A stretch of DNA of 64,000 nucleotides from an uncultured Bacilli bacterium. GTDB lineage: Bacteria > Bacillota_I > Bacilli_A > RFN20 > CAG-826. Of the stretch, positions 6,048-16,904 are shown piece after piece; position 1 is the first letter of the stretch; each line of letters starts with the position of its first letter. The notes under the pieces are model-generated. The model made no database searches, was not told the origin of the DNA, and worked only from the letters and a program-made list of their open reading frames with translations. Location of the stretch: positions 73,149 to 137,148 of the forward strand of contig CALVHN010000001.1 of NCBI GenBank assembly GCA_944327845.1, given 5' to 3'. The position numbers and the translations under genes were made by a program.

Positions 6048-6323
6048 TCACATATTTTCCTTAATATCATTTTGCATTTCTTTACTTGCTTTTAAAAAAC
6101 CTTCAAGAACAAAATGATAATATCTTTTTAAGTTTTGATCTTTAATTTTGTTTAAGTTTTTATTTAACATTAATTCTTCTCTATTTGAATCAGTTACAGG
6201 AATGTTGTTCTCTAATTTAAAATTAATAACATCTTTAACAACATTCATTCTTTTTTCATATAAATTAATGATCTTTTCATCAATTTCATCAATTATTTCT
6301 CGATAAGTATTTAGTTTATTCAT
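6048..6323 (-). CDS. chorismate mutase, AroQ type
   Basis: A 91-residue all-helical protein of the usual length of monofunctional AroQ chorismate mutases, which convert chorismate to prephenate for Phe/Tyr synthesis. The pattern YREIIDEIDEKIINLYEKRM, then a Lys near residue 36 (FKLENNIPV), then D-x-NREEL, matches the AroQ signature with the Arg, Arg, Lys and Arg/Glu active-site positions. AGGAGG precedes the ATG at 6323. It is the last gene of a three-gene minus-strand run, 13 bases after the permease gene. No other aromatic-pathway gene is in the window, so its partner enzymes must lie elsewhere or the activity serves another purpose. Confidence 0.85.
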   Translation of the reverse strand: MNKLNTYREIIDEIDEKIINLYEKRMNVVKDVINFKLENNIPVTDSNREELMLNKNLNKIKDQNLKRYYHFVLEGFLKASKEMQNDIKENM

Positions 6324-6336
6324 AAAATATTTCCTC

Positions 6337-7785
6337 CTAAAATATTAATAATCCTAAAGGATAAGCTATTAATAAAGATAAAATAACTGCAATAAGCATT
6401 AATATTAATCCATATATAAAAACATCTTTTGTTGAACAACTTTCACTAGACGAAATTATTGCAATATGTGGCATAGCAGGAGGAGTAGCAAAAGCAAAGC
6501 TTGACAGCATTCCGATAATACAAATTAAAGCATTTAAATTAATTGAAGTGGAAGTAGATAATAAAATTGTACTAGCTACAGTTGCTACTAAAGTTGCAGT
6601 AACCATATTTGAGCTTAAATTTGTTTGAATAATTGCCCAAACAATAAAAACAATTAAAAGAACAATTCCAGGAAGAGAAATAAGTAAAGGTCCTAAATTA
6701 TTTTCTAAGTATGGAATAATTCCTATTGAATCACTTTTTATTGCTTCCCCTAAACATAAAGTAGCAGCACACATTATTAAACTTCCCCAAGGTACACCAT
6801 TTTTAAATGCATCATCAATTTTAATAATTGGTTCATTATCAATTCGAATAATACATAAAGCAAGTACTCCTAAAATTGGGGGCATAGCAGTTCCATATTT
6901 ATTAAAGAATAAATATATTGGTTCATAAATATATTCAAAAAGAGATGGAAGTATCCATAAAAATAAAATAGTAATAAAAATTATTAAAGTAATGATCTCT
7001 TTTTTATTAATTTTAGGTAATTCATCTTTTAATTTTGTTAAATTATCAAACTTAATTTTTTTAATATCTGGTTTAATAAATAAAATTAAAACAAAATACA
7101 TTAAAAGAAATAAAATTAATCCAGTAGGAAAAGCAAGACCAATATATTCAAAAGTAGAAACATCAATATTTGCAGCATTCATTGCTAAAACTGGAAAAAC
7201 ATGAGCAATAGGAGTGATCCCACTACTAATAGATACACTAAACCCAAGTCCTAGCATTAAAACCTTGCTAATCCTATCTTTTTTATCAATATTTAATATA
7301 TCTAATATTTCATTTAATATTGGAAGTAAGACTAAAAATAGAACACTAGGAGAGATAAATAAACCTAAAATTAAACTAGCTAATAAGAAGAAAAAGATAA
7401 ATAAATATCCATTTTTTCTTGCTAGTTTAAAATTAATAAAAGATATCGCTACTCTTTTAATAAAAGAAGTTTTACTTAAAGCATAAGTACAAATAAAAGT
7501 AAAAAGTAAGAAAATAAATGTTGAATTTCCAAAACTTGTAGTAAAGACTTTAGCAAAACCAAAACTTGGAATAAAACCTAAAGCAAAGATACATAATAAA
7601 GAAGGCCAATCTATTCCAATTGTTAGCCATAAAATTAAAACTCCTAAAAAGATAAATAAAACTCCAAATGCTTCACTAGAAAAGCCATTGACAGCAGGAA
7701 TAAATTGTCCAACAAAACATAAAATAAGAGATATTGGAATAATGATTAAACGAAATATTTTATTATCTTTTAATTTAGTTTTCAT
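6337..7785 (-). CDS. SLC13/DASS-type anion or dicarboxylate permease
   Basis: A 482-residue integral membrane protein with about 11-12 hydrophobic segments, starting MKTKLKDNKIFRLIIIPISL. The length, the paired half-repeats each with a hairpin-like Ser/Pro/Asn motif (FISPSVLFLVLLPI near residue 145; TNLSSNMVTATLV near residue 390) and the SGITPIAHVFPV segment fit the SLC13/DASS (sodium:sulfate/dicarboxylate symporter) superfamily. The first motif is SPS rather than the canonical SNT, so substrate and coupling ion are uncertain. Its start overlaps the end of the upstream U32-family gene by 11 bases, implying co-translation, and it is followed by chorismate mutase. Confidence 0.7.
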   Translation of the reverse strand: MKTKLKDNKIFRLIIIPISLILCFVGQFIPAVNGFSSEAFGVLFIFLGVLILWLTIGIDWPSLLCIFALGFIPSFGFAKVFTTSFGNSTFIFLLFTFICTYALSKTSFIKRVAISFINFKLARKNGYLFIFFFLLASLILGLFISPSVLFLVLLPILNEILDILNIDKKDRISKVLMLGLGFSVSISSGITPIAHVFPVLAMNAANIDVSTFEYIGLAFPTGLILFLLMYFVLILFIKPDIKKIKFDNLTKLKDELPKINKKEIITLIIFITILFLWILPSLFEYIYEPIYLFFNKYGTAMPPILGVLALCIIRIDNEPIIKIDDAFKNGVPWGSLIMCAATLCLGEAIKSDSIGIIPYLENNLGPLLISLPGIVLLIVFIVWAIIQTNLSSNMVTATLVATVASTILLSTSTSINLNALICIIGMLSSFAFATPPAMPHIAIISSSESCSTKDVFIYGLILMLIAVILSLLIAYPLGLLIF

Positions 7786-8995
7786 TTTCTTCTTTCATTC
7801 TTAAAATATCATATCTATTTAATTTATAAGGACATTTTAAATATACTCTTTCTTTGATCTTTTTAACTTCATCTATTTTTTCATTATTTGGATTGATTAT
7901 TTCATTAACTTTAAAAGATTTATTAAAGTTTTCTCCGTTTGATAATATTTCTAAACAATCTCCAAGTTTAAATTTATTACGGTGTTCAACTAAAATATAT
8001 CCATTATCTAAAGATTCAATAACGACTGCAACATATTTATAAGTAGAAGTAAGTTTAGAAGTTAGGATGTTAGTTTTTGAATTAGAATTAAAATAAAATC
8101 CTGTGGTAAATGCTCTATTTGATGTTTTATGTAGTTCATTAATATAATCAAAAGAAACTTTATTATTATAAAAATCATCAATTGCTCGACGATAAGCATT
8201 AACAACAGTACCAACATAATAATTAGATTTCATTCTTCCTTCAATTTTTAAACTTTTAATATTTGCTTTACTAAGTTCCTTTATATGTTCAATCATACAT
8301 AAGTCTTTGCTATTTAGAATATATGTTCCTCTTTCATCTTCTAAAATTGGATAATATTCTTCTTGATCAATATCATTTTTAATTCCTAAAGCATAGTTCC
8401 ATCTACAAGGTTGAGCACATTCTCCTTTATTAGAATCTCTTCCAGTTAAATAATTCGATAATAAACATCTTCCACTATAAGAAATACACATCGCTCCATG
8501 AGCAAAGCACTCGATATCAATATCTTGACCAACAAAATCTTTTATTTCTTTTATTTCGTTAAGTGATAGTTCTCTAGCTAAAACTAATCTTTTAGCGCCA
8601 AGTTCAACCCACATTTTTGCTGAATATTTGTTTGTGATATTTGCTTGAGTAGATACATGTAACTCTAAAGAAGTATATTTTTTAACTAAGCTAGCTATTC
8701 CTAAATCACTAACAATAATTCCATCAACATGATTTTCATCTAAGAATTTTAAATAATCTACTAATCCATCAAAATCTTCATTATGAGCTAAAATATTTAC
8801 GGTAATATACACTTTTACATTATGTTCATGAGCATAATTTACCGCTTTAATAATTTCATTTTCATCAAAATTATTGCTAAAAGCTCTTAAACCAAATTTT
8901 TTTCCAGCAAAATAAACAGCATTTGCTCCAAAATGGATTGCAGTAACAAGTCTTTCATAATCGCCACATGGAGCTAATAATTCTAATTTTTCCAT
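7775..8995 (-). CDS. U32 family protein, TrhP/YrrO-like tRNA hydroxylation factor
   Basis: A 406-residue protein starting MEKLELLAPCGDYERLVTAI, the hallmark of the U32 'collagenase-like protease' family. It has the family Cys cluster CFAHGAMCISYSGRCLLSNY and then GECAQPCRW at about residues 163-202, and the ILNSKDLCMIEHI and KIEGRMKSNYYV motifs. Bacterial members such as TrhP and RlhA act in prephenate-dependent 5-hydroxyuridine formation in tRNA or rRNA rather than in proteolysis. Prephenate is the product of the chorismate mutase at the end of this operon, which makes the TrhP assignment attractive. A TAATAT -10 box at 9007-9002 lies six bases before the ATG and no Shine-Dalgarno is seen, so the transcript is probably leaderless. 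Confidence 0.85.
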   Translation of the reverse strand: MEKLELLAPCGDYERLVTAIHFGANAVYFAGKKFGLRAFSNNFDENEIIKAVNYAHEHNVKVYITVNILAHNEDFDGLVDYLKFLDENHVDGIIVSDLGIASLVKKYTSLELHVSTQANITNKYSAKMWVELGAKRLVLARELSLNEIKEIKDFVGQDIDIECFAHGAMCISYSGRCLLSNYLTGRDSNKGECAQPCRWNYALGIKNDIDQEEYYPILEDERGTYILNSKDLCMIEHIKELSKANIKSLKIEGRMKSNYYVGTVVNAYRRAIDDFYNNKVSFDYINELHKTSNRAFTTGFYFNSNSKTNILTSKLTSTYKYVAVVIESLDNGYILVEHRNKFKLGDCLEILSNGENFNKSFKVNEIINPNNEKIDEVKKIKERVYLKCPYKLNRYDILRMKEENEN

Positions 8996-9214: not shown

Positions 9215-10756
9215 TTATTTTGCCATTAATGGTGTAGCTAATAAAATAAAGTTAAGTAAGAAAAGTAAAGCACTAATACCAAGAATGATGCTGATATTTA
9301 ATTTTGGTTTAATGATTAAATTTCCATTTTGATCTTGAAGTTCACCTGTTTCTGAAGTAAGAGCATTTTTACTATGAATCTTATAAACAATAAAGTCTTT
9401 AGTATAAAGAGCAATTCTAACAAGACAATAAGTGATAAAGCCCATTGCAATACCATAAGAGATAGAATAGCAGAATGCCATAAATGCAGTTAAGAAGAAT
9501 GCAGGAACTGCTTCTTCAAGTTTAAACCATTCAACATCTTTAAAGTTAGCAAGCATCATACAACCAACAATAACTAAAACTGGAGCAGTAGCAACAGCAG
9601 GAATTGCACTAATTGGACCAGCAAAGAAAATAGCAATAAAGAAACATAAAGCAGTGACACAGCTTGCTAAACCGGTTCTGGCACCAGCTTCAATTCCACT
9701 TGCCGATTCAACAAAAGTAGTAGTATTACTTGTACCTAAAATTGCACCAATTGAAGTAGCGACGCTATCAGCAAATAAAGCACGATCCATTTTAGATTTA
9801 AAACCTTTTGAAGTTTCTAGAGCTGTTAAATCTTCATCAGTGAAGATTCCACTTTTTCTTCCTGTACCAATAAATGTACCTAATGTATCAAAAGTATCAG
9901 TTAAAGAGAAAGAGAAAATTGTGATAATCGCAGTAATTGCTTTCACACCATCATTAAATAATGAACCAAAGCCTTTACCTGTAAAGATTACACCAAATGT
10001 TTGAGGAAGTTGCTTAAATGCATCGATAAAACCATCCATATAACCATATTGAGCACTTCCAATCCCAAGATTACCAATAGTAGTAACAGCTGTTCCTTGT
10101 CCAAAGAAAGGTATTAAACCAATCAATGTTGTTGCGATAATTGAAATAATCATTGCGCCTTTTACTTTTAAAACATTTAAGACAATACAAATGATTAATC
10201 CAATTAAGAAGACGACTAATGTTGGTGAATTCCATAAAGCAGTTCCACTTGCCATTGCAGGAACACCACTTGAGAAATCAATAAAACCAGCATTTAACAA
10301 GCCTAAATAGGCGATGAACAATCCAATACCACCAGAGATTGCTGCTTGTAACGATTTAGGAATAGATTTAATTATCAGTTTCCTAACTTTTGTAATGGTA
10401 ATTATTATGTTGATAAGTCCACATATAAATACCATCGTTAGAGCTTCTTGCCAACTAAAACCTAAAGCACCACAGACTGTAAAGGCAAAGAAGGCATTTA
10501 AGCCCATTCCTGGAGCTTGAGCATATGGAACATCAGCAAATAATCCCATAATTAAAGTTCCAATAATCGACGCAAGAATTGTTGCAATAAATACAGCTCC
10601 CCAAGGTACTCCACTTCCTGAAAGGATGTTAGGATTGGTAATAATGATATAACTCATTGCAAAAAATGTAGTTAATCCACCAACGACTTCCTTTCTAATA
10701 GAGGAGTTAGTTCCTTTAATGTCAAAGAGCTGAAGTTTGCCATCAACCATTTTCAT
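9215..10756 (-). CDS. NCS2/AzgA-type purine (hypoxanthine/guanine) permease
   Basis: About 513 residues with some 12-14 membrane segments. The start KEVVGGLTTFFAMSYIIITN, the motif APGMGLNAFFAF and the later FSLTDTFDTLGTFIGTG and TTFVESASGIEAGARTGLAS segments are diagnostic of the AzgA/PbuG/PbuO branch of NCS2 transporters, which import hypoxanthine, guanine or adenine with protons. The frame opens at 10762, but the GGGG ribosome site sits directly against that ATG; the second ATG, at 10756, is better spaced. A promoter and an upstream inverted repeat lie at 10789-10848. The gene is monocistronic, ending at a strong terminator. Confidence 0.9.
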   Translation of the reverse strand: MKMVDGKLQLFDIKGTNSSIRKEVVGGLTTFFAMSYIIITNPNILSGSGVPWGAVFIATILASIIGTLIMGLFADVPYAQAPGMGLNAFFAFTVCGALGFSWQEALTMVFICGLINIIITITKVRKLIIKSIPKSLQAAISGGIGLFIAYLGLLNAGFIDFSSGVPAMASGTALWNSPTLVVFLIGLIICIVLNVLKVKGAMIISIIATTLIGLIPFFGQGTAVTTIGNLGIGSAQYGYMDGFIDAFKQLPQTFGVIFTGKGFGSLFNDGVKAITAIITIFSFSLTDTFDTLGTFIGTGRKSGIFTDEDLTALETSKGFKSKMDRALFADSVATSIGAILGTSNTTTFVESASGIEAGARTGLASCVTALCFFIAIFFAGPISAIPAVATAPVLVIVGCMMLANFKDVEWFKLEEAVPAFFLTAFMAFCYSISYGIAMGFITYCLVRIALYTKDFIVYKIHSKNALTSETGELQDQNGNLIIKPKLNISIILGISALLFLLNFILLATPLMAK

Positions 10757-10788
10757 AAGCATACCCCTTTCAAAAAAAATACTTTTTT

Positions 10789-13162: not shown

Positions 13163-13597
13163 ATGGAATTAGTAAAAAACTATTTCAAAAAGAAGAGTTA
13201 TGGCTTTTATGTTACTCTTGCAGTAATTGTTATGACCATAATTACAATGATAGTTTATTCAAGTTCATATGGATCAATTGATCGATATATGTCTTGGACA
13301 GCTATTTGGTTTATGGCTATTGGATTAATAGTTGGTCTAGCTCTTTCTATCTTAAATTTTGGTGAATGGGGTGCAGCAGTTTTAGGAATTTGCAATTTCA
13401 TCGGATTAATGCAATATATCACTAAAATTTATAATTACGTTGTCGTTGTTTTGGTTGGAATTGATGTTAACACTTTTTCATCTCAATTTATTGGTTGCAC
13501 AGTTTGTTTTGCAATTTTAATTGTTTTAAGTGTAGCAAATATATTCTTTAAACAAGAAAAGAAAGTGGAGGTTCTTACAAATGAAGTTAAAGCGTAG
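13163..13597 (+). CDS. four-helix membrane protein partnered with GH3 enzyme
   Basis: 144 residues with four predicted membrane helices (about 14-36, 45-66, 68-100 and 108-130) and short charged tails. Not a family I recognise. A second protein with the same architecture and the shared segment YNYV.VVV.GID...F lies before the other GH3 gene (minus strand, 24301-23852), so the pair is paralogous and constantly associated with the glycosidase. The ATG follows AGGAGGGAAGT. Its 3' end overlaps the GH3 gene by 17 bases, indicating translational coupling. A role in membrane insertion, anchoring or complex formation of the glycosidase is inference. Confidence 0.8.
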   Translation: MELVKNYFKKKSYGFYVTLAVIVMTIITMIVYSSSYGSIDRYMSWTAIWFMAIGLIVGLALSILNFGEWGAAVLGICNFIGLMQYITKIYNYVVVVLVGIDVNTFSSQFIGCTVCFAILIVLSVANIFFKQEKKVEVLTNEVKA

Positions 13598-16500
13598 TAC
13601 AAGAATTAATCTTCAAAAAACATGTTTAGTTGCTTTTGGTGCTATTTTTGGAGTCATGATGACTGCAACTCCAATATTATGGGATAATGAATCTACAATT
13701 ACTGGAGCTTTAGGACAAACTGATTCTATTATTGAACAAGATAAAGATGTTGAATATAAGGCAGAAGATTTAGAATATTACAAATCTTCATATAAAAATT
13801 TAAAAGAAGTTGTTTATAATGGCTTCCAAATTCAAGAACAAGAACAAGCTGAAGGTACTGTTTTATTAAAAAATGATAATAATGCATTACCACTTGCTAA
13901 AGGAAGTAAAGTTTCAGTTTTTGGTGTAGCTGGAGCTCATCCAATGTATGGTGCATCTGGATCTGGTGGAATTAATACTAAAGATAAAATTGATTGGTAT
14001 GAAGCTTTTGATGGATATAGTTATTCTAATCCTAATACACCTAATACAAAGGTTAAAGGTGATACTTTATTAGAAGTTAACCAAAAACTTGCTGATGATT
14101 ATTTAGTATGGGGTAAACCTGGTCAAAGTTCATGGACAGGAACCACTCCTGGTGGACCTTATTCATCTTCCTCATCAGTTTCTCAAGTTCATATCGGTGA
14201 TGCTCCTTGGGATGTTGTTAAAAAATCCAGTGGTTATAATGATATTGCTCAATATGGTGATGCAGCAATCTATGTTATTTCTAGATCTGGTGGCGAAGGA
14301 TATGATTTACCTGCAACAAGTGGTAGAAATGAACAATATGGTAATCAAAATAATCAATATGTTTCAGAGAATGATGGAACAGATGGAGATTATTTACAAC
14401 TTTCTCCAGTAGAAATTGGTGTTTTAAATGGACTTAAAGAATTAAAAGAACAAGGAACAATTAAGAAAATAGTTTTATTACTTAATATGGCAAGCCCTGT
14501 TCAATTAGATTTTTTAAGCGAGAATGAATTTGATATTGATGCTGCTTTATGGACTGGATCGGTTGGAGAGGTTGGAACTGTAGCTGTTGCTAAACTTTTA
14601 ACGGGAGAATATAACTTCTCAGGTGGAGCTTCTCAAACTTTATGGGCTAATCACTTAATGAATCCAGTAAATAATAATTTTATGGATCAAAATTATTTCT
14701 TTACTTATAAAGATGCATATGATGGAAAGCATTATTACGATCAAGAAAATGTTGCTTTAACTACTCAATATCAGTCTTCATTTACAACTTATACTGTATA
14801 TCAAGAAGGAATGTATTTAGGATATCGATATACTGAAACTAGATATGAAGATTTTGTTACTCAAAGAGAAAATGTTGGAGAATATGACTACTCTAAAGTT
14901 GTTTCTTATCCATTTGGCTTTGGCTTATCATATACTAATTTTGAATTTAGCAATATGAAAGTTACAAAATCTGATGATCATTATAATGTAAGTGTTGATG
15001 TTAAAAATAGTGGATCTGTCGCTGGAAAAACTCCTGTTCAAGTATATTTAGCTAAACCTTATACAAAATATGCACAAGAAAATAATATTCAAGTTCCTTC
15101 TGTTGAATTAGTTGATTTTGGGAAAACTGGAGTAATTGAACCTAATGGAAGTGAAACTGTTACTATCTCAGTAGATGAATCATTATTTGCTTCATATGAT
15201 ACATTTGGAGCTAAAACTTATATTACAATGGATGGAGATTATTCATTAATTGTTGCAAGTGATGCTCATAGTGCAGTTAATAATTTATTAGCTTCAAAAG
15301 GATATACTCCTGCAAATACTAATAATAGAATGGATGATGAGGGAGATTCTAATTTAGTAAAAACATTTGATTATAATTTTAACTCTTCAACATATTCGTT
15401 TACTGATGGTGGTTATCCAATAACTAATAGATTCGGATTTGGTGATATTAATACTTATAGTGGAAAAGGAGAAAATGAAGTAGAGTATTATTCTCGTGAT
15501 AATTGGAATGATATTATACTTCCAGAAAGAAACGAAGCTGGTGTCTTAATTAAACATAATGCTGAATTATCCATGACCAAACAAATGGTTGATGATATGA
15601 AAAATCAAATGGATGCAGGTTATGTAATTAAAGAAGATGATCAACCTTATCCAACATATGGTGCAAAAAATGGATTAAAACTTATTGATATGATGAGAGA
15701 AGATGGAACAATAAGAAATTATAATGATCCACTTTGGGATAAGTTACTTGATCAATTAACTTGGGATGATACTGTTACCTTACTTTCTAATGGAAGACAT
15801 AAAACTGTTGCTATTGAAAGTGTTACTAAACCATCAACTGGTGATGAAAATGGTCCAAATGGTTTTAATCAAACGTATAGAACAAAATCAGAAGGATCTG
15901 CTTATAGTGGACCAACAAATCCTTATGCTGAAAGAGCAGGTGGATTTGATGAAAATGGCAAATATATCCCTGATCCTGATATCGGATCTGGCTTTACTAC
16001 AACAGGTTTTTCATCTAACGGAGTTTTAGCTTCAACTTTCAACAAAGAACTTGCTAAGAAAGTTGGTGAACAAATCGGTGAAGAAGGATTATGGGCAGGA
16101 CAAGCTGGATTGCTTGGAATTGGTTTAAATATTCAAAGAAGTCCATATTCTGGAAGGACAGCTGAATATTATTCTGAATGTGGTACATTATCAGGATTAA
16201 TTGCTTCCCCTGAAATTAGTGGAATCGAATCAAAAGGTGTACATTGTTTTATTAAACATTGTGCTTTAAATGAATGTGAAACAGCTCGTCATGGTGTAAA
16301 TTTATGGGCAACTGAGCAAACATTAAGAGAAATTTACTTTAGACCTTTTGAAATGGGTATTAAAGATGGTGGTTCTTTCTCAGTTATGACATCTTTCTCA
16401 AGAATTGGTACACAAGCTGTTGCAAATTGTGTTGAATTTACTCAATTTTTACGTAATGAATGCGGTTTACAAGGTATTGTTGAAACTGATTGTGCTGGTG

Positions 16501-16904
16501 ATATGACTGATGGATCACACGGAGAAGCATATGTATCTAGAATTGTTAATGTTTATACCGGAGCTACCGATTTAAACGAATATAATTATGGTGATGGTGT
16601 AGCTGATTATACTGGTTCAACATACAATTATGATTATTTTAAACCAGGCAATTCTAATGGTAACTTTGGAAAACTTGGACAAGCAATGAGAGAGGCTTCA
16701 AAAAGAATTCTTTATCATACAGTTACTTCAAATGCTATGAATAGTTATTCTTCAACAACAAATATTATTAGTGTTACTCCTCCTTGGGAAATTGCAGTAA
16801 TTACAATAAATGTAATTAGTGGAATCTTGCTAGCTGCATCAGCAGGTTGGTTTATTACAACAACTGCTTTAGACTTTATAAATAAAAGAAAAGAAGCAAA
16901 GTAA
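13581..16904 (+). CDS. membrane-anchored, domain-permuted GH3 beta-glycosidase
   Basis: 1107 residues. A membrane helix near residues 12-32 is followed by the GH3 C-terminal alpha/beta sandwich domain (EGTVLLKNDNNALPLAKGSK), a fibronectin-III-like domain (about 450-575), then the catalytic barrel (about 710-1050), and finally a C-terminal helix (WEIAVITINVISGILLAASA) with a basic tail. The order is therefore reversed relative to usual GH3 enzymes, as known for some Ruminococcus and Butyrivibrio beta-glucosidases. The catalytic region contains FIKHCALNECETARHG and the predicted nucleophile D970 in GIVETDCAG. The enzyme should be held on the outer face of the membrane by both ends and release sugars from beta-glucosides or xylosides; the substrate is not readable. 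GGAGG precedes the start. Confidence 0.92.
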   Translation: MKLKRSTRINLQKTCLVAFGAIFGVMMTATPILWDNESTITGALGQTDSIIEQDKDVEYKAEDLEYYKSSYKNLKEVVYNGFQIQEQEQAEGTVLLKNDNNALPLAKGSKVSVFGVAGAHPMYGASGSGGINTKDKIDWYEAFDGYSYSNPNTPNTKVKGDTLLEVNQKLADDYLVWGKPGQSSWTGTTPGGPYSSSSSVSQVHIGDAPWDVVKKSSGYNDIAQYGDAAIYVISRSGGEGYDLPATSGRNEQYGNQNNQYVSENDGTDGDYLQLSPVEIGVLNGLKELKEQGTIKKIVLLLNMASPVQLDFLSENEFDIDAALWTGSVGEVGTVAVAKLLTGEYNFSGGASQTLWANHLMNPVNNNFMDQNYFFTYKDAYDGKHYYDQENVALTTQYQSSFTTYTVYQEGMYLGYRYTETRYEDFVTQRENVGEYDYSKVVSYPFGFGLSYTNFEFSNMKVTKSDDHYNVSVDVKNSGSVAGKTPVQVYLAKPYTKYAQENNIQVPSVELVDFGKTGVIEPNGSETVTISVDESLFASYDTFGAKTYITMDGDYSLIVASDAHSAVNNLLASKGYTPANTNNRMDDEGDSNLVKTFDYNFNSSTYSFTDGGYPITNRFGFGDINTYSGKGENEVEYYSRDNWNDIILPERNEAGVLIKHNAELSMTKQMVDDMKNQMDAGYVIKEDDQPYPTYGAKNGLKLIDMMREDGTIRNYNDPLWDKLLDQLTWDDTVTLLSNGRHKTVAIESVTKPSTGDENGPNGFNQTYRTKSEGSAYSGPTNPYAERAGGFDENGKYIPDPDIGSGFTTTGFSSNGVLASTFNKELAKKVGEQIGEEGLWAGQAGLLGIGLNIQRSPYSGRTAEYYSECGTLSGLIASPEISGIESKGVHCFIKHCALNECETARHGVNLWATEQTLREIYFRPFEMGIKDGGSFSVMTSFSRIGTQAVANCVEFTQFLRNECGLQGIVETDCAGDMTDGSHGEAYVSRIVNVYTGATDLNEYNYGDGVADYTGSTYNYDYFKPGNSNGNFGKLGQAMREASKRILYHTVTSNAMNSYSSTTNIISVTPPWEIAVITINVISGILLAASAGWFITTTALDFINKRKEAK

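Follow-up and report, generated by a model that had tools for sequence, protein, structure and literature searches.

A candidate operon for chorismate salvage and RNA hydroxylation in an uncultured Bacilli bacterium

Overview

A stretch of 64,000 nucleotides from an uncultured Bacilli bacterium (GTDB lineage RFN20; CAG-826; assembly GCA_944327845.1, contig CALVHN010000001.1, positions 73,149 to 137,148), called the window here, contains three tightly packed genes on its minus strand, which encode in order a U32 protein of the TrhP type, a transporter of the DASS type, and a chorismate mutase (CM). The host is apparently unable to make chorismate, judging from its gene content, and we consider it probable that this operon salvages chorismate for RNA hydroxylation. 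In the proposed route, the transporter would import chorismate made by neighboring microbes, the AroQ-type CM would convert the imported chorismate to prephenate, and the U32 iron-sulfur protein would use prephenate, probably as the hydroxyl donor, to form 5-hydroxyuridine (ho5U) at U34 of tRNA. What the transporter carries, in which direction, and whether ho5U is present in this organism are all points that we infer from gene content. Somewhat less firmly, we also favor a broader proposal: that this branch of DASS proteins is a dedicated chorismate importer for bacteria without the shikimate pathway, that prephenate acts in them much like a vitamin, as the oxygen donor in RNA hydroxylation, and that members of one family either import this donor or make it through a shikimate operon joined to the hydroxylase genes by linkage or fusion.

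The link between prephenate and U32 proteins comes from earlier work, cited here and below from excerpts of the papers. Genetics and feeding indicate that TrhP-dependent formation of ho5U requires prephenate, and prephenate in the medium restores the modification; RlhA, which acts on rRNA, is also prephenate dependent (PMC6599085). A review of U32 oxidases describes prephenate as the source of the hydroxyl group in anaerobic ubiquinone synthesis (PMC11574389).

The host genome lacks markers of chorismate and Phe/Tyr synthesis

The genome that contains the window (1.135 Mb in 9 contigs, 96.85% complete) gave no match to chorismate synthase, 5-enolpyruvylshikimate-3-phosphate (EPSP) synthase, prephenate dehydratase (PDT), or the prephenate dehydrogenase domain (PDH), each of which was found in all 14 genomes used as controls for these searches. 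Since there is no chorismate synthase, no source of substrate for the CM is evident inside the cell, and hidden chorismate synthesis is disfavored by the absence of EPSP synthase as well. A CM left without substrate in this way suggests that the permease encoded between it and the U32 protein is probably a chorismate importer. Shikimate was considered as a cargo and set aside, because it would be of no use without chorismate synthase. The missing PDT and PDH likewise leave the CM product without a Phe/Tyr outlet that we could find.

The genome contains a single match to the CM_2 family and a single U32 match, so that the mutase is indeed a lone one, as the initial annotation had described it. 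The same annotation suspected that the genome is reduced for aromatic pathways, and the four unmatched marker genes agree with this; a complete Phe/Tyr pathway drawing on this mutase was looked for at these four markers and was not found.

Transporter and mutase occur together in synthase-negative relatives

The same 146 genomes of the family, many of them drafts, were searched for all of the genes. Chorismate synthase was found in 10 of them, CM in 26, U32 in 28, and a match to the transporter profile in 16. All 10 genomes with the synthase have CM and none has the transporter, and U32 is found in every one save for G115. The 16 synthase-negative genomes with the transporter all have U32 and a CM match, that of G084 having a stop in frame. 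Among the 120 genomes with neither synthase nor transporter, there is no CM and U32 is found in three. Within the synthase-negative genomes, the association of transporter and CM has a Fisher p of 4e-21, uncorrected for kinship. The 16 transporter-bearing genomes are spread over 5 of the 35 genera, and in the genus of the window all three genes are found in 11 of 13 sampled genomes, while G085 and G125 lack all three.

EPSP synthase is found in the 10 synthase-bearing genomes plus G145. PDT is found in 8 genomes (5 of these matches being weak) and PDH above the cut-off in 5, with neither among the 16 that have the transporter, although three of these have PDH matches below the cut-off (19 to 21 bits). 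The absence of PDT and PDH, together with this all-or-none distribution of CM, supports the earlier suggestion that the mutase serves RNA modification rather than amino acid synthesis.

The transporter gene adjoins CM directly in 16/16 genomes (in G084 the broken CM match lies just downstream of it), and a TrhP-type U32 gene precedes it in 14. A check of the gene neighborhood in relatives had been proposed with the initial annotation, and the recurrence of the U32-transporter-CM order, along with the co-occurrence in the family, rules out chance co-location. In the remaining two genomes, G094 and G127, the only U32 is a long protein with the DUF3656 domain, as in RlhA, encoded divergently from the transporter-CM pair. 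Since these two lack a TrhP-type gene and RlhA also needs prephenate, the common outlet of the pathway would be hydroxylation by U32 proteins in general. The 16 transporters have a mean column identity of 75%, with no stops inside the matches.

Synthase-bearing relatives link shikimate genes to U32

Five of the synthase-bearing relatives (G005, G010, G036, G058, and G076; 86-96% complete) gave no match to PDT or PDH, and in all five CM adjoins a U32 gene of the RlhA type. This adjacency is found in only one, G044, of the five synthase-bearing genomes that have PDT or PDH. Four of the five without a PDT or PDH match, all of one genus, carry seven shikimate activities in a single run (Table 1), consisting of 3-dehydroquinate synthase, chorismate synthase, a shikimate dehydrogenase-kinase fusion, dehydroquinase, 3-deoxy-D-arabino-heptulosonate-7-phosphate synthase, and finally a fusion of EPSP synthase to U32 (695-698 amino acids), which is followed by a separate U32 gene of 396-400 codons. 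This run was annotated with Pfam in G005 and by similarity to G005 in the other three. G010 has the same order from chorismate synthase onward, the contig ending in separate U32 genes for proteins of 281 and 397 amino acids, and its CM, 3-dehydroquinate synthase, and RlhA-type U32 genes are on another contig. This linkage of shikimate genes to U32 is independent support, from gene arrangement, for the production of prephenate for U32 proteins. In a further genome, G120, CM is fused to 3-dehydroquinate synthase (L091:9354-10727).

Wider distribution of the transporter subfamily

Named genomes were also scanned against the transporter alignment, which yielded 59 loci, and 46 genomes were searched for genes. 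The subfamily is found in Clostridia and Erysipelotrichaceae as well, and the closest named matches are metagenome-assembled genomes (MAGs) of uncultured Bacilli. Candidatus Onthovivens merdipullorum (L155) has the same U32-transporter order, with 76% identity over a fragment. CM is adjacent to the transporter at 31 loci, and at 5 the contig ends at or near the transporter. The synthase was found in 2 of the 46 genomes, CM in 40, and U32 in 45. Eleven of them are close relatives (59-79% transporter identity); the other 35 have the synthase in 2, CM in 30, and U32 in 34. With the family sample added and overlaps removed (L115/G127 and L117/G094), there are 60 genomes with the transporter, 2 with the synthase, 54 with CM, and 59 with U32.

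For a base rate, chorismate synthase was found in 261 of 295 genomes from the order of one Oscillospiraceae hit. It is present in none of the 7 transporter-bearing genomes assigned to Oscillospiraceae by record title or tree placement (p 5e-7) and in 1 of 10 if the count takes in three "Clostridia" MAGs that fall in that part of the tree (p 7e-8), both values being uncorrected for kinship. In the transporter tree, adjacency to CM appears in three separate parts with different gene orders: the clade of the window, with Christensenella and other Clostridia; Levyella and Murdochiella, where the genes are divergent; and Anaerorhabdus, where CM is upstream. Murdochiella massiliensis and Levyella massiliensis are among the carriers in which no chorismate synthase was detected.

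Other arrangements were seen alongside these. In the divergent Levyella/Murdochiella loci (L145, L147, and L148), a CstA-type protein, named with Pfam on L145, follows CM. At L127, L130, L133, L141, and L144, transporter relatives lie between FAD_oxidored-type and DUF6198-type proteins (named with Pfam on L127 and by clustering at the other four), with CM elsewhere in the genome, and three of these five loci also have a LysR-type regulator.

Predicted proteins of the operon

The initial annotation had placed a CM in one operon with a TrhP-type U32 protein and a permease gene between them that overlaps the U32 gene. All three open reading frames (ORFs) were recovered on the minus strand with this overlap (Table 1). 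A sequence AGGAGG is found 9 nucleotides upstream of the CM start. Pfam matches are above the cut-off for all three proteins: PF01136 and PF16325 (Peptidase_U32 and its C-terminal domain) in the U32 protein, PF00939/PF03600 (Na_sulph_symp/CitMHS) in the transporter, and PF01817 (CM_2) in the mutase.

Table 1. Positions of the operon features in the window and of the shikimate runs in relatives.
Feature	Position	Strand	Evidence
U32 protein, TrhP type, 406 amino acids, first gene of the operon	7775..8995	-	ORF, Pfam, NCBIfam, residue motif
DASS/INDY-fold transporter, 482 amino acids, candidate chorismate importer	6337..7785	-	Pfam, NCBIfam, model fold; co-occurrence
Overlap of U32 and transporter genes, 11 nucleotides	7775..7785	-	ORF coordinates, sequence
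Presumed ribosome-binding site for CM (AGGAGG), which overlaps the transporter stop codon	6333..6338	-	Read from sequence
Monofunctional AroQ CM, 91 amino acids	6048..6323	-	ORF, Pfam, NCBIfam, active-site alignment
Shikimate run with EPSP synthase-U32 fusion, flanked by CM and RlhA-type U32	L080:5436-16047		
Shikimate run with EPSP synthase-U32 fusion, flanked by CM and RlhA-type U32	L085:4033-14599		
Shikimate run with EPSP synthase-U32 fusion, flanked by CM and RlhA-type U32	L088:5172-15790		
Shikimate run with EPSP synthase-U32 fusion, flanked by CM and RlhA-type U32	L089:4956-15650		

The CM resembles the gram-positive AroQ type described by the NCBIfam model TIGR01805, with a score barely above the cut-off (71.5 against 71.2 bits). 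Aligned with the CM domain of E. coli PheA, it keeps 8/8 active-site residues of that domain (R11, R28, K39, D48, R51, E52, S84, and Q88), and from its sequence it looks intact as an enzyme. It differs from other mutases of the TIGR01805 type in belonging to a genome in which neither chorismate synthesis nor Phe/Tyr branch enzymes were detected. An alignment of 16 such mutases shows invariant or nearly invariant active-site positions, the one deviating row being a second copy in G026 (L061:7487-8424). This copy appears to be decaying, with R8 changed to C and Q84 to H, and it adjoins a C-terminal transporter fragment, the end of the operon being partly duplicated in tandem.

The U32 protein shares 34% identity with E. 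coli TrhP (YegQ), with a score of 226 bits as compared with 168 bits against RlhA. TrhP is also its best NCBIfam model, at 335 bits against an equivalog cut-off of 534, and it is for this reason that we call the protein TrhP-type rather than a TrhP equivalog. It contains E162 and the cysteines C170, C177, C193, and C197 in the pattern CX6CX15CX3C. The excerpts consulted give this pattern as the cysteine motif of U32 oxidases (PMC11574389) and report an essential Glu and other essential residues in TrhP (PMC6599085). The four-cysteine motif and the numbering of E162, C170, and C177 are shared with E. coli TrhP, while the window protein is shorter, and E. coli obtains its prephenate from its own shikimate pathway. 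It lacks the DUF3656 domain (PF12392), which is present in the four RlhA-like relatives scanned, and a search of the PDB by sequence (E 0.001) found no relative. The iron-sulfur cluster presumed for the U32 protein is taken from the literature.

The transporter is, by sequence, a divergent branch of the DASS/INDY (SLC13) group. It shares its fold and an above-cut-off PF00939 match with VcINDY, NaDC3, and NaCT, at 18-21% identity to DASS/INDY structures, and it scores 119.9 bits against the DASS model TIGR00785, short of the cut-off of 198.6. A model built on an alignment of 30 sequences has a mean predicted local distance difference test (pLDDT) score of 87.7 and template modeling (TM) scores of 0.82 to NaDC3 with alpha-ketoglutarate and 0.78 to VcINDY. 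Unlike VcINDY, whose substrate motifs are a pair of SNT motifs, the window transporter lacks the canonical twin SNT motifs and instead reads SPS and SSNM. In the subfamily, the first motif is mostly SPS or SPT; the second is SSN, and the residue after it is mostly M. The proline and the SSN do not vary across 30 diverse members. Chorismate is a dicarboxylate, and its two carboxylates would suit a dianion transporter of this modeled fold, a match that does not in itself establish the cargo. Some members are longer: L149, L151, and L153 encode transporters of 604-610 amino acids in genomes of 0.8-1.0 Mb. Fusion to CM was considered for these proteins of about 600 amino acids, and the alignment shows instead an additional segment, apparently of a membrane type, that adds about 120 residues to the middle of the protein.

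The gene upstream on the same strand encodes a xanthine/uracil-type permease (9215-10762). Among 38 fetched stretches its relative was seen only in the organism's own, which places this permease outside the conserved gene set. A promoter scan gave 19 sites versus 27.7 expected from shuffles, and the three terminator-like sites are all within genes. Elsewhere in the window are a BspA-like leucine-rich-repeat protein (3-2195) and a large protein similar to glycosidases of family 3 (13581-16904), both named by eye from their translations.

Evidence against chorismate salvage and alternative explanations

Several observations weigh against chorismate salvage as we describe it. That this subfamily carries chorismate is deduced from gene content. 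The instability of chorismate is a further difficulty, as is its uncertain supply in the habitat. Three synthase-negative genomes of the family (G043, G064, and G095) have U32 without CM or transporter; these draft genomes (73-94% complete) belong to two genera, each of which also has a synthase-bearing member. CM is not adjacent to the transporter at 23 of the 59 loci, a count that includes L146, whose adjoining CM frame is broken. Both synthase-bearing genomes of the wider set run against the pattern, G175 (Anaerorhabdus furcosa) with an adjacent CM and G186 without CM. Five synthase-negative wider genomes have no CM match (G159, G178, G183, G189, and G190), four of these having a contig that ends at or near the transporter, and G169 has no U32 match. 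The base rate for the synthase covers one order only. G044 has both PDT and PDH and yet its CM adjoins an RlhA-type U32, so CM-U32 adjacency alone is no proof of role. In the host genome, no outlet was found by searches for PDT and PDH, a scope that leaves aside other users of chorismate or prephenate (TrpE, PabB, MenF, and CmoA) as well as TrhO and TrmR. Lastly, a 2024 paper, in the excerpt consulted, reports that extracellular chorismate was inactive in C. glutamicum, giving no induction, and judges chorismate unlikely to enter easily (PMC11258901); the inactivity goes no further than to show the need for an importer.

A different cargo for the transporter is unlikely in our view, though less so than the other alternatives. 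CM and U32 would then act as proposed, chorismate would enter otherwise, and the DASS protein would move a C4 dicarboxylate or a by-product such as phenylpyruvate. Structures of the DASS fold have been solved, by their entry titles, with succinate, citrate, alpha-ketoglutarate, fumarate, malate, or sulfate, and some relatives of the transporter adjoin unrelated genes. However, the genomes with the transporter are exactly the synthase-negative genomes with CM (16 of 146), it is absent in all 10 with the synthase, and its gene adjoins that of CM in three separate parts of the transporter tree. An exporter of by-products would be expected in synthase-bearing genomes too.

It is improbable that prephenate, alone or mixed with chorismate, is what the transporter imports, CM then only topping up or recycling. 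Prephenate is likewise a dicarboxylate, and E. coli took up enough of it from the medium to restore ho5U, according to the excerpt of PMC6599085. If prephenate were the main cargo, however, CM would be expected to be lost, yet its catalytic residues are intact and CM is matched in every transporter-bearing genome of the family, the broken frame of G084 included.

The usual role of CM is aromatic amino acid synthesis, and feeding that synthesis with imported chorismate would be another explanation of the operon. PDT and PDH were searched in the family sample, and the 46 wider genomes were searched for synthase, CM, and U32, a limit that counts for this explanation and against our proposal. Within the family, however, PDT and above-cut-off PDH are both at 0/16 in the transporter-bearing genomes, the host's own included, so that a Phe/Tyr role is disfavored there and we consider it very improbable. 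That the genes are functionless leftovers of a lost shikimate pathway is hardly credible, since the small genome, the broken CM frame of G084, and the decaying second copy in G026 stand against 8/8 catalytic residues, 16 conserved transporters without stops, the way in which G085 and G125 lack the three genes together, and a linkage that recurs in several lineages.

Relation to known transporters and significance

Among the matches listed from open-licence PMC papers, searched by title and the start of the abstract, no bacterial chorismate importer and no operon of this kind is described; the one paper listed for uptake or transport of chorismate concerns a phenylalanine exporter of plants. 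Two parallels were compared by concept and description. The shikimate permease ShiA (named in an excerpt of PMC3018139) also takes up a shikimate-pathway intermediate, although shikimate would still require chorismate synthase, which is absent in the host genome. EDS5 is a presumed transporter of isochorismate, an isomer of chorismate (excerpt of PMC11416591), though it is a plant protein from a different process.

A 2010 survey of shikimate-pathway loss states, in the excerpt consulted, that specific uptake of intermediates or products warrants examination (PMC3018139), and this operon supplies a concrete candidate for a chorismate importer. The prephenate need of RNA hydroxylation may suffice to retain CM, or apparently a whole shikimate operon, in genomes where no Phe/Tyr branch enzymes are found. 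If so, CM or shikimate genes alone would not indicate aromatic amino acid synthesis, and RNA modification in these bacteria would be tied to cross-feeding between microbes.

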